From contig NZ_CP036276.1 of assembly GCF_007747995.1 (NCBI RefSeq), forward strand, positions 4,269,001 through 4,333,000: DNA of 64,000 nucleotides, written 5' to 3'. Positions 11,924 through 14,667 of this stretch are shown one piece after another. A model generated the notes under the pieces. It had not been told where the DNA came from, made no database searches, and worked only from the letters and a program-made list of their open reading frames with translations. A program made the position numbers and the translations under genes. This stretch comes from Symmachiella dynata (GTDB lineage: Bacteria > Planctomycetota > Planctomycetia > Planctomycetales > Planctomycetaceae). Position 1 is the stretch's first letter, and every line of letters begins with the position of its first letter.

Positions 11924-12703
11924 TCAGAGCGAGCGACCGATGATATATCCGTGCGGATCCACCTGTTTCCGCAAAGCGTCGAGTTGATCGCTCGTAGGCA
12001 GAGCAGTCGTTGCCAGTTGATCAGCAACATCGATATCAAACGACGTTCTGCTGCGGACCGCCTCTAAAGTCACCCCTGGGTGCAGCGATTCGACTTGCAT
12101 CCGCTTTGTGTCCGGGTGAAAACCGAGGATGGCCAAGTCGGTGATGACTTTGTGCGGCCCGGTCCCCGGTGGCAGTCCGGCCGCTTCGCGGGCTCCCGGG
12201 CCGTCGAGGTAACCGGCAGTCGTCACATAATCGACTCGCTCCACGAATCGTCGAGGATCGTGCGGCGTAATCACCAACGTTTTGCGGCACAGCGAACCAA
12301 GATCATTGGCGCCGCCGCTGCCCGGCAACCGTACCGCCGGCGTATCGTAATCGCCGATGACGGTGGAATTGAGATTGCCGTAACGGTCGATCTGCGCGCC
12401 GCCCAAAAACGTATAGTCGACCATCCCCCGTTGGCAGGTCTCCATAATGTCCGCCATGCTGGTTGCCATCAGACCTTGATAAAACGTGCGAGAATCCCCC
12501 ACGCTGATCGGCATCCGCGGCAATCGCGGCCCAACGCCCCCCGCTTCGAACATCAACGCCAATTTGGGAGCGGTCGTCAATTGCGCCAGCATCGCCGCCG
12601 CACACGGCGCTCCAGTCCCCACAACCACTAAGGCACCATCTTCGAGCAATCCAGCCGCTGTGCAGATCATTTGTTCGATGGGTGTGTAGGTTTTTGTGGT
12701 CAT
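11924..12703 (-). CDS. CoA-transferase beta subunit (glutaconate/3-oxoacid type)
   Basis: A 259-residue CoA-transferase family I beta subunit. ATG 12703 (MTTKTYTPIEQMIC) is preferred to 12742 because the extension is not family-like. Visible features are ALVVVGTGAPCAAAMLAQLT near 20-40, MFEAGGVGPRLPRMPISVGD, FLGGAQIDRYGNLNSTVIG near 110-130 and LPGSGGANDLG near 140, which is the conserved loop near the CoA site. Such enzymes swap CoA between organic acids and work as alpha/beta heteromers. No alpha-subunit gene is adjacent: upstream lie a GxxExxY gene and a cyclase-family hydrolase, downstream an empty spacer. The partner must be elsewhere or lost. Confidence 0.85.
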   Translation of the reverse strand: MTTKTYTPIEQMICTAAGLLEDGALVVVGTGAPCAAAMLAQLTTAPKLALMFEAGGVGPRLPRMPISVGDSRTFYQGLMATSMADIMETCQRGMVDYTFLGGAQIDRYGNLNSTVIGDYDTPAVRLPGSGGANDLGSLCRKTLVITPHDPRRFVERVDYVTTAGYLDGPGAREAAGLPPGTGPHKVITDLAILGFHPDTKRMQVESLHPGVTLEAVRSRTSFDIDVADQLATTALPTSDQLDALRKQVDPHGYIIGRSL

Positions 12704-12729
12704 GGTTGGTGCTTTGGAAAAATATCTCG

Positions 12730-12757
12730 CGCAGAGACGCAAAGGCGCAGAGAGAAG
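12730..12757 (+). repeat. CGCAGAGACGC-type repeat, left arm
   Basis: CGCAGAGACGC-AAAGGCGCAGAG occurs here and again in inverted orientation at 13268-13310, so the two copies frame the GxxExxY gene. Allowing a 2-base insertion and 2 substitutions, about 26 bases match. Confidence 0.75.
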
Positions 12758-12813
12758 TAAAAAGAGAAAATAGAAAAAAGGGAAATCACAAAATGTTTTG
12801 CACGCGTTTTGGG

Positions 12814-13206
12814 TTAATCCTTGAGATCGTTTGCGAGGCGGACAATGCCGTCTTTCATTAGTGGGGCACCGAAGTTTAAGAGGAGGCCAAGGCGTTTGTC
12901 CGTGAGTTTAAGGTAGGTCAGTAATTGTTTTTTGTGGACCGGACTGAGCGTTTCTATGGATTTCAATTCCACAATGACTTTGTCGTTGACAATGAGGTCG
13001 GCCACAAAGGCATTTTCCAGACGCATTGAATCATAAACAACGCTAATCGGCACCTGTCGCTGTACGGTTAACCCGCGTTTTTTCAGCTCATGCTCTAGAC
13101 ACGCTTCGTAAACGACCTCAAAAAGTCCCGGGCCCAGAGTCGAATGTACGCAAACCGCCGCATCAACAACCAACGCAGTAATCTTGTTCTCCATCATCTC
13201 AGGCAT
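12814..13206 (-). CDS. GxxExxY family protein
   Basis: A 130-residue protein of the GxxExxY family, named for the motif seen here as GLFEVVYE (residues about 27-34, after LGPGLF). Other landmarks are QVPISVVYDSM, ADLIVNDKVIVELKSIETLSPVHKKQLLTYLKL (about 68-100) and GLLLNFGAPLMKDGI, giving a D-x(n)-ExK core like that of PD-(D/E)xK nucleases. Function is unknown. The gene is framed by inverted CGCAGAGACGC-type repeats at 12730-12757 and 13268-13310 and interrupts the space between the CoA-transferase and cyclase genes, so it looks like an inserted cassette. Confidence 0.92.
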   Translation of the reverse strand: MPEMMENKITALVVDAAVCVHSTLGPGLFEVVYEACLEHELKKRGLTVQRQVPISVVYDSMRLENAFVADLIVNDKVIVELKSIETLSPVHKKQLLTYLKLTDKRLGLLLNFGAPLMKDGIVRLANDLKD

Positions 13207-13267
13207 AATAAAACCCCAGAAATTGATCCACTACGTTTCGCTCGAAATTTTACTCGTTTGCTCTTTG

Positions 13268-13310
13268 CTTCTCTGCGCCTCCGCGTCTCTGCGTCTCTGC
13301 GTCTCTGCGC
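13268..13310 (-). repeat. CGCAGAGACGC-type repeat, right arm
   Basis: The minus strand reads CGCAGAGACGCAGAGACG and continues through GCGGAGGCGCAGAGAAG: a short tandem of CGCAGAGA units. It is inverted relative to 12730-12757 and ends 12 bp before the stop of the cyclase gene. Confidence 0.75.
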
Positions 13311-13322
13311 GCCATTCTTTTA

Positions 13323-14102
13323 TTACGAAGGCACCAACGCCACGGCGCGGCACCAGCCGGCGCTGGCGGCTTTGATTTTTATGGGGAGGCAGGAGACGTA
13401 GAACCCGTGCGGCTGGGGGAGTTGATCGAGATTGGCCAGTTTTTCGATTTGGCAATATTCCGCGGTAATGCCGGCGAAATGCGCTGGCCAGATGTGTCGG
13501 CCGTCGCCCGTTTTTTTGTAGTCTGCGACCATGTCGGCAAAAGGACGGTCGAGTGTGTAGGCGTCGATACCGATCACCCGTACCCCCTGCTCCACCAACC
13601 AGAGCACTCCCTTGCGTCCCAAACCGGGTTGCTGGAAATAGGCAGCTGAGTCGATCCGTTTGTCCGCATCGGTGCGAAGCATCACGATATCCAGCGGCTT
13701 GATTGTGTAATCAATTCGCTCCAGCTCTGCTTTTAAATATTCGACGGTAATCTCTTCACCTGCGGGCACATTGCGCACGTCAAGAACGACTCCGGGGCCG
13801 AAACACCACTCAAGCGGGACATCGTCGATCGTCCGCGCCGGTTGGCCTGCCGATTTTGCGCCGTAGTGATAGGGGGCATCGACGTGCGTTCCGGTATGAG
13901 TGATGGCCTGCACCTGTTCCACGGCCCAGCCCTGCCCCTCGGAATAGACGAGGTCCTCTGGTTGGATGCCGAAGAACTGCTGCATCTGCGCCAAGCCCTC
14001 GCCCGCATGATCGACATAGTGAATCTGCGCCGGCAACGGTTCGCTCGAGGCGTTGTGTTCCAAAGGGACACTGAGGTCGATCATTTTGCAATTGTCAAAC
14101 AT
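13323..14102 (-). CDS. Cyclase family (kynurenine formamidase-like) metal hydrolase
   Basis: A 259-residue member of the cyclase family (PF04199), metal-dependent hydrolases that include kynurenine formamidase and isatin hydrolase. The metal-binding signature HTGTHVDAPYHY (around residues 69-80) is intact, as are IDLSVPLE at the start, VVLDVRN, DIVMLRTDADKR and GVRVIGIDAYTLDRPF. A conserved His near HIWPAHFAG (about 205) fits the catalytic part. ATG 14102 or an internal ATG (MIDLSVPL) 18 bases on could be used. The gene lies upstream of the GxxExxY cassette and of the CoA-transferase beta gene on the same strand, so before the insertion it may have formed one operon with it, perhaps for breakdown of an aromatic or cyclic compound. 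Confidence 0.88.
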   Translation of the reverse strand: MFDNCKMIDLSVPLEHNASSEPLPAQIHYVDHAGEGLAQMQQFFGIQPEDLVYSEGQGWAVEQVQAITHTGTHVDAPYHYGAKSAGQPARTIDDVPLEWCFGPGVVLDVRNVPAGEEITVEYLKAELERIDYTIKPLDIVMLRTDADKRIDSAAYFQQPGLGRKGVLWLVEQGVRVIGIDAYTLDRPFADMVADYKKTGDGRHIWPAHFAGITAEYCQIEKLANLDQLPQPHGFYVSCLPIKIKAASAGWCRAVALVPS

Positions 14103-14179
14103 AGTGATTCACATCGATTTCAGACTGGATACGGGAATGGTGACTCGTCGTGCTGTGATCCGAGTAGGATCGAAGCATA

Positions 14180-14392
<213 letters not shown>

Positions 14393-14667
14393 GTTCGGTG
14401 ATAAGAAAGGGTCTCTAAGTGGCTCGAAATCAACAAATTCCGGGCAAACGGCGAACTTGTTGACCGCTGTGCGTGTCTGACAAGTCGGCGTAAGTTACTT
14501 GGTTGGAAAACTTTGCGCATATTTCATCATTGGGTCGTATCGTGCCAATTGCTTGTATTCGGGGGCAGGACGTGGTTCCACACTTTCCCCCTGGGTATTC
14601 GCAAAGTAAAATGTTCATAGGTTCGCGCACCGTCGCGATGGATTAGAAAGCCTCTTGGTAGGGAAGC

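Follow-up and report, generated by a model that had tools for sequence, protein, structure and literature searches.

A GxxExxY gene between inverted tandem arms in Symmachiella dynata: a candidate minimal mobile element

The cassette in Symmachiella dynata

The window, the whole 64,000-nucleotide stretch of the S. dynata genome that was analysed, carries a GxxExxY gene of 393 bp between two arms built of short tandem units. The features of the locus, with its two neighbouring genes, are as follows.

11924..12709, minus strand: flanking CoA-transferase family protein (PF01144, profile match), outside the element; 98.8% amino acid identity in the congener G001
12718..13321, no strand: entire cassette, arm-gene-arm; outer ends approximate
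12718..12753, plus strand: left arm, 3' of the GxxExxY gene; three inward units, CGCAGAG-a-CGCAAAG-g-CGCAGAG
12814..13206, minus strand: GxxExxY gene, 130 aa, predicted PD-(D/E)XK nuclease fold (profile match and structure model)
13262..13321, minus strand: right arm, 5' of the GxxExxY gene; five inward CGC units and a degenerate sixth
13323..14102, minus strand: flanking putative cyclase (PF04199, profile match), outside the element; 93% amino acid identity in G001

A sequence-only reading of this DNA had described the gene as framed by inverted repeats, with extra tandem units on the right. Both observations hold. The right arm is inverted with respect to the left and bears additional tandem CGCAGAGA units at 13271-13309, and the arms pair in two registers: 12730-12753 with 13270-13293 (24 nt, 92% complementary) and 12718-12753 with 13286-13321 (36 nt, 83% complementary). 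With up to 3 mismatches allowed, the 23-nt left arm occurs 4 times in the 64 kb, every time inside the two arms, against 0.00 occurrences expected from 100 shuffles, so the repeats are not a product of chance. Against the arm model of the genome, whose own set includes that arm, 12718..12753 scored 38.5 bits. The only open reading frame of at least 80 aa lying wholly between the arms is GxxExxY, and among such frames no recognised transposase was found, in agreement with the sequence-only reading. An RNA interpretation of the cassette was set aside, since Rfam gave no match up to E 1 over positions 12500-14500. Beyond the cyclase, at 14276-14359, lies an 84-bp array of TACTGCC/TACCGCC heptamers; the congener has 7 bp at the same place.

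The window protein matches PF13366 (PDDEXK_3, E=2.9e-42) and TIGR04256 (GxxExxY, E=2.1e-42), scoring 144.2 bits where the Pfam cut-off is 22 and the NCBIfam cut-off 35. PF13366 was the sole match in a search that gave none to PF05635 (IVP/S23). The GxxE..Y motif and the D..ExK nuclease residues are kept; across 52 aligned family sequences G27, E30, Y33, D70, E80, K82 and N111 are invariant, E80 being merely near-invariant in a 21-row alignment. The closest fold to the structure model (pLDDT 93.6) is that of Cas4 SSO0001 (Z 9.4 over 100 residues), with weaker matches to numerous others, archaeal Hjc (Z 7.2) among them. Foldseek with the same model gave a best E of 1.0e-3 and a weak row for I-Bth0305I (E 0.32), and a sequence search of the PDB gave one match at E 0.02. 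As modelled, GxxExxY is a small protein with a predicted PD-(D/E)XK (restriction-endonuclease-like) fold. PADLOC reported similarity to Cas4 and to reverse-transcriptase (RT)-associated PD-(D/E)XK models, and a defence reading was rejected because that similarity was weak only. The family is common in the phylum, with matches in 139 of 294 Planctomycetota genomes drawn and up to 14 in one genome. The open-access literature, a scope that excludes subscription journals and preprints, held no account of the cassette as an element: the excerpts of PMC8934634 and PMC12085832 mention GxxExxY incidentally, and searches with the family accessions and six arm sequences returned papers on Arctic algae and fish eDNA only.

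We then compared the locus among 59 genomes including S. dynata, 12 of which (S. dynata counted) have a match to the cyclase. The CoA transferase adjoins the cyclase in S. dynata and G001 only, with the cassette between them in both, and none of the other 10 genomes has a CoA-transferase match within the approximately 1.5 kb read on each side. The neighbours had been proposed to be a former operon, and this distribution does not uphold the idea. No empty allele of the locus was found among the 59 genomes, the sole relative with the same gene order being filled, and for that reason the outer ends of the cassette are approximate. Between G001 and the window the GxxExxY proteins are 80% identical beside neighbours at 99% and 93%, a pattern that fits replacement or fast evolution of the gene. 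Target-site duplications, also envisaged earlier, could not be read because the alleles compared are too diverged at their edges.

Inverted arms across the GxxExxY family

Eighty GxxExxY loci were taken from genome records of many phyla; 79 were scored, one being dropped for a flank that was too short. Two of them (L129, L154) are archaeal by record title, and L154 is without a clear repeat. In an alignment test, in which the upstream flank is compared with the reverse-complemented downstream flank and a score of at least 32 counts as strong, 59 of the 79 loci had strong inverted repeats, as opposed to 3 of 530 control windows from the same loci; flanks paired across different loci reached this score in 37 of 512 cases. 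A unit test, which scores unit pattern and orientation only, found inward arrays on both sides at 48/79 loci versus 1/487 control windows, and outward arrays on both sides at 8/79 versus 0/487. Within the Planctomycetota, ParE toxin genes were used for comparison: the alignment test was positive at 26/30 GxxExxY loci and 0/30 ParE genes, the unit test at 19/30 and 0/30. The sequence-only reading had named repeat-free flanks in most homologues as the outcome that would count against it, and the opposite was observed.

The typical arm comprises about three tandem CRCNRAG-type units of 7 nt, whose starts are mostly 8 nt (100 cases) or 9 nt (69 cases) apart. The letters vary between elements and tend to agree between the two arms of one element. 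Measuring this agreement on arms chosen by alignment in the 80-locus set is circular, and we replaced it with units found independently on each side. Position 2 then agreed in 46 of 48 loci (permuted mean 26.5, maximum 36) and positions 4-5 in 33 of 48 (permuted mean 13.4, maximum 25). Across phyla, arm letters track the protein tree weakly: position 2 requires 11 changes (shuffled mean 14.8, minimum 9) and positions 4-5 require 20 (shuffled mean 24.7, minimum 19).

Inverted repeats flank all three GxxExxY genes of S. dynata and differ in sequence from gene to gene; those of L002 (C1:2133711) and L003 (C1:908634) are CACGAAA-type and CACAGAT-type, respectively. Plasmid records rarely hold a relative (7 of 72,556), a number insufficient for building allele series. 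In IMG/VR, the patterns used retrieved 7 GxxExxY loci with inverted flank repeats scoring 33-114, one of the 7 having the unit pattern on both sides. The flank repeats of four genes on viral contigs (L173-L176) are quite different and partly A/T-rich.

Exchange at the fabD-fabG locus of Sphingomonas

Through a search of a plasmid collection we came upon a cassette in Sphingomonas parapaucimobilis that lies between fabD and fabG. The same arrangement occurs in S. endophytica, whose genome has one PF13366 match. Among 101 Sphingomonas genomes, 46 gave one continuous match over fabD-cassette-fabG, and the cassette ends were read in 30 of these 46; a match in two pieces (G429) was left out. Twenty other Sphingomonas genomes were read at the same place, where 17 have a fabD-fabG gap of 21-147 bp between aligned ends and 3 have another gene. 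The empty-site alleles anticipated by the sequence-only reading thus exist here, and not at the window's own locus, where the congener is filled. In L346, L347 and L348 the gap is occupied by an acyltransferase-like gene, named from its translation, instead of the cassette.

On a host tree of fabD plus fabG (50 rows), presence of the cassette changes 11 times. The cassettes fall into three main arm types, AAG, GGAG and AGAG, and the left and right arms of one locus are often alike down to odd spacers. Their mean similarity within a locus was 20.3; 2000 permutations that ignore the kinship of the 30 loci averaged 14.2 and reached 16.6 at most. For the 30 filled loci, the host tree requires 12 changes of arm type and the GxxExxY tree 4, a count based on hand-set types; automatic labels gave 13 and 4. 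These labels were the same on left and right in 28 of 30 loci, with L322 and L340 mixed, and L359 was called 'other' though its gap is 38 bp. Arm type therefore follows the gene tree and not the host tree, which indicates that gene and arms travel together.

Approximately unbiased (AU) tests gave the same picture. The gene data reject five of six host clades (p 0.0087, 0.0123, 0.00011, 0.0013 and 0.040) and retain the sixth (p 0.184), the clades having been picked after the trees were seen and some being nested or overlapping; the host data reject every arm type as a clade. We also compared pairs of related hosts. Nine pairs have unlike arm types, with a gene identity of 68-75%, and seven of these nine have 90-96% identity in both flanks. 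Of 5 pairs sharing one type, 4 show 85-96% identity in the gene and L315/L330 shows 71%; this last pair, diverged despite its common arm type, shows that fast evolution contributes. In 13 of the 14 pairs flank identity remains at 83-98% as far as the last 90 bp; one fabG edge is at 73%. The dN/dS ratio of GxxExxY was 0.04-0.13 in 7 of 8 pairs tried (a set that drops L316/L317; the L322 reading frame is short), so the gene is kept by purifying selection. At least at the fab site, gene and arms are exchanged jointly, on top of fast divergence. Since most copies carry arms and this exchange is joint, the minimal cassette proposed from the window sequence is supported for the GxxExxY family.

Arm patterns are also abundant elsewhere in genomes that carry the cassette. 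All ten genomes examined with a fab cassette had 43-153 hits each (reversed-pattern control 13-35), versus 0-3 hits (control 1-8) in all eight with an empty fab site, emptiness being judged at fab only. These 18 chosen genomes reduce to 4 independent contrasts, all in one direction (sign test, p 0.125), and the link between arm abundance and the gene is accordingly suggestive only. In two carriers, G347 and G439, the matches listed (the first 100 and the first 50, respectively) include all three arm types, beyond the type of their own cassette. Among these 150 matches every clear composite arm, 13 of 13, places its AAG units on the outside and its GGAG or AGAG units on the inside, a count that omits one more composite whose arm is mixed. 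Similarly, the cassette of L330 is of AGAG type, with a left arm of AAG type lying outside it. From their sequences, we read the composites as younger elements set between the arms of older ones, the alternative being a built-in double arm. The inner spacing in G347 is fairly constant, with 9 of 15 inward neighbours at 92-94 bp among the matches listed, hinting at a fixed hairpin size.

Gene-less arm pairs and the nature of the element

To follow the arms through planctomycete genomes we used R1, a model built from S. dynata arms (E up to 0.01; 150 candidates scored per genome), which identified at least 112 arms in S. dynata and at least 57 in the congener. The 99 S. dynata arms listed form 31 pairs of neighbours no more than 700 bp apart, all facing inward, with no pair facing outward or pointing the same way; about 0.9 neighbours are expected by chance for those 99 arms. 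One of the 31 pairs encloses GxxExxY, 30 are gene-less, and 37 arms are unpaired. The 24 gene-less pairs that were extracted span 55-217 bp, 15 of them 142-165 bp. When aligned, their interior is partly conserved, and their predicted minimum free energies, computed without a shuffle control, are -24 to -116 kcal/mol. The pair at 7462473-7462949 (spacing 438) was considered as a GxxExxY remnant and found unconvincing (best tblastn E 0.10). Elsewhere R1 matched G005 (34 arms; 7 GxxExxY matches), G316 (7 arms; 8 GxxExxY matches) and G003 (4 arms). These three are the only genomes with R1 arms among 17 of the S. dynata family; the 14 others, 8 with GxxExxY and 6 listed without a PF13366 match, gave no R1 match.

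Comparison of S. dynata with G001 over 424 and 400 kb showed one arm pair common to both (4395281) and one in S. dynata only (4466343), the edges of which are blurred because G001 has other sequence there; no clean insertion boundary for this type of element was found in the regions compared. A different element of 85-93 bp, with ends like TTTCAAAA...TTTTGAAA, is present in one of the two species and missing in the other with fairly clean edges (S. dynata C1:4400542 and 4584998, L295 and L304; G001 C3:296314, L283).

The cassette is, in our view, probably a member of a widespread class of minimal mobile elements, in which the nuclease acts on its own arms and moves gene-less pairs in trans. 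The sequence of its own arms, probably folded into a hairpin or cruciform, would be what the GxxExxY nuclease recognises; it would cut there or at a recipient site, and host repair would fill the break with a copy of the element. Short arm pairs that lack the gene would be mobilised in trans as non-autonomous copies. Because composite arms suggest that old arms come to lie outside, an incoming element may invade a resident from inside, leaving the old arms behind and swapping cassettes at one site. The sequence-only reading had left movement to the repeats or to the protein itself; that GxxExxY is what drives movement is a step we infer. We read the element as working like a RAYT-REPIN system or a homing gene, without equating it with either, the cutting and copying being likewise inferred.

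Homing endonuclease genes include PD-(D/E)XK and Vsr-like kinds, and the likeness is considerable: a small nuclease gene occupies one site in some relatives and is repeatedly gained, lost and replaced. Filled and empty alleles with horizontal exchange were seen at the Sphingomonas fabD-fabG locus, not at the window locus. A homing-type gene could account for the data if the nuclease cut a particular recipient site, be it the fab gap or an element already in place, and was copied in by recombination, with arms that were hairpins or terminators and gene-less pairs that were unrelated. The predicted fold, the full-length matches at one site in 46 of 101 genomes with recurrent gain or loss and swapping, and the predicted folding of the 24 S. 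dynata pairs are all compatible with this account. We nevertheless consider it unlikely, as arm type tracks the gene and not the host, arm patterns were abundant only with the cassette among the 18 Sphingomonas genomes searched, and the gene has arms beside it at dispersed locations across many phyla. Moreover, unlike a homing endonuclease gene, GxxExxY is intergenic and lies between inverted tandem arms, with dispersed gene-less pairs.

REPIN-RAYT (TnpA-REP) systems, the topic of PMC8049555, PMC3733652 and PMC8266576, resemble the element in having one chromosomal gene and many short gene-less inverted pairs that carry its flanking repeats and are capable of forming hairpins. The GxxExxY element agrees with them in its gene-less pairs (30 among the 99 arms listed) and differs in its enzyme, which has a predicted PD-(D/E)XK fold and not that of a Y1/HUH transposase, and in that gene and arms are exchanged together. 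A REP is one imperfect palindrome, whereas GxxExxY arms are tandem units. MITEs are short non-autonomous copies that share terminal inverted repeats with a longer, gene-bearing insertion sequence; gene-less short copies share inverted repeats with the GxxExxY element in the same manner, but no known transposase lies between its arms and no target duplication was read. It is quite unlikely, in our view, that the arms are REPIN- or MITE-like repeats whose movement depends on a different enzyme, for example a RAYT (Y1 transposase), with GxxExxY as cargo or a tolerated insert. The gene-less inward hairpin pairs do resemble REPINs, and Y1_Tnp has 8 matches in S. dynata and 2 in G001. However, within about 1.5 kb of 3 of those 8 S. 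dynata loci and of both G001 loci there are no CGCNRAG arrays, and arms occur at 59 of 79 GxxExxY loci despite their varying letters. The Y1_Tnp profile, the sole transposase family covered, matched none of the 18 Sphingomonas genomes, including the 10 cassette carriers with 43-153 arm hits, and this removes the RAYT, the usual partner of such repeats, from consideration there.

Ordinary homologous recombination would make the fabD-fabG gap a hot spot for allele exchange among Sphingomonas species and the element itself inactive. The flanking genes are conserved enough to recombine, and three genomes have the acyltransferase-like gene in the same gap. Since flank identity stays at 83-98% as far as the last 90 bp in all but one of 14 pairs, however, an imported tract would need to end near the cassette, and recombination leaves the dispersed arm pairs and the same architecture in other phyla unexplained; we regard it as very unlikely. 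That GxxExxY is a small gene selected by the host, for instance for defence or repair, with flanking hairpins that are transcription terminators only, would suit the purifying selection and the weak PADLOC similarities, yet it is highly improbable given the swapping and repeated absence at the fab locus, the agreement of arm letters on both sides, and the lack of flank repeats at all 30 genes for ParE, a protein encoded by a gene of similar size.

A broader form of the mobile-element reading is put forward tentatively, as possible but in its full extent somewhat more apt to fail than to hold. GxxExxY proteins would drive a class of mobile DNA in many bacterial phyla and probably some archaea, in which a small Cas4/Hjc-like nuclease reads tandem octamer-spaced arms, spreads itself, mobilises gene-less hairpins in trans, displaces older elements by insertion between their arms and owns many otherwise unexplained short tandem arrays of bacterial genomes, with the IVP four-helix-bundle family acting in parallel on 7-nt arrays. 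If this is true, a family named from a motif gains a function as a mobile-element enzyme, and a large set of scattered short tandem-array repeats gains an owner. Nature supplies a ready series at the Sphingomonas fab locus, where alleles are empty, filled or swapped and arm types are matched.

The genes for 23S rRNA intervening-sequence proteins (IVP/S23, PF05635) offer a further likeness, a single small gene between inverted arrays of short units. We found inverted flank arrays at 26 of 30 such loci in Planctomycetota (L209-L238). The protein belongs to another family, a four-helix bundle, and the 7-nt units are of another class; the GxxExxY unit pattern was present on both sides of 1 of the 30 genes. 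IVP/S23 may represent a parallel class of element, the owner of bacterial heptamer arrays. Its arrays, as at L225 and L218, consist of 7-nt units such as AGGGGTT, CAGTGGC and TAGTTGT.
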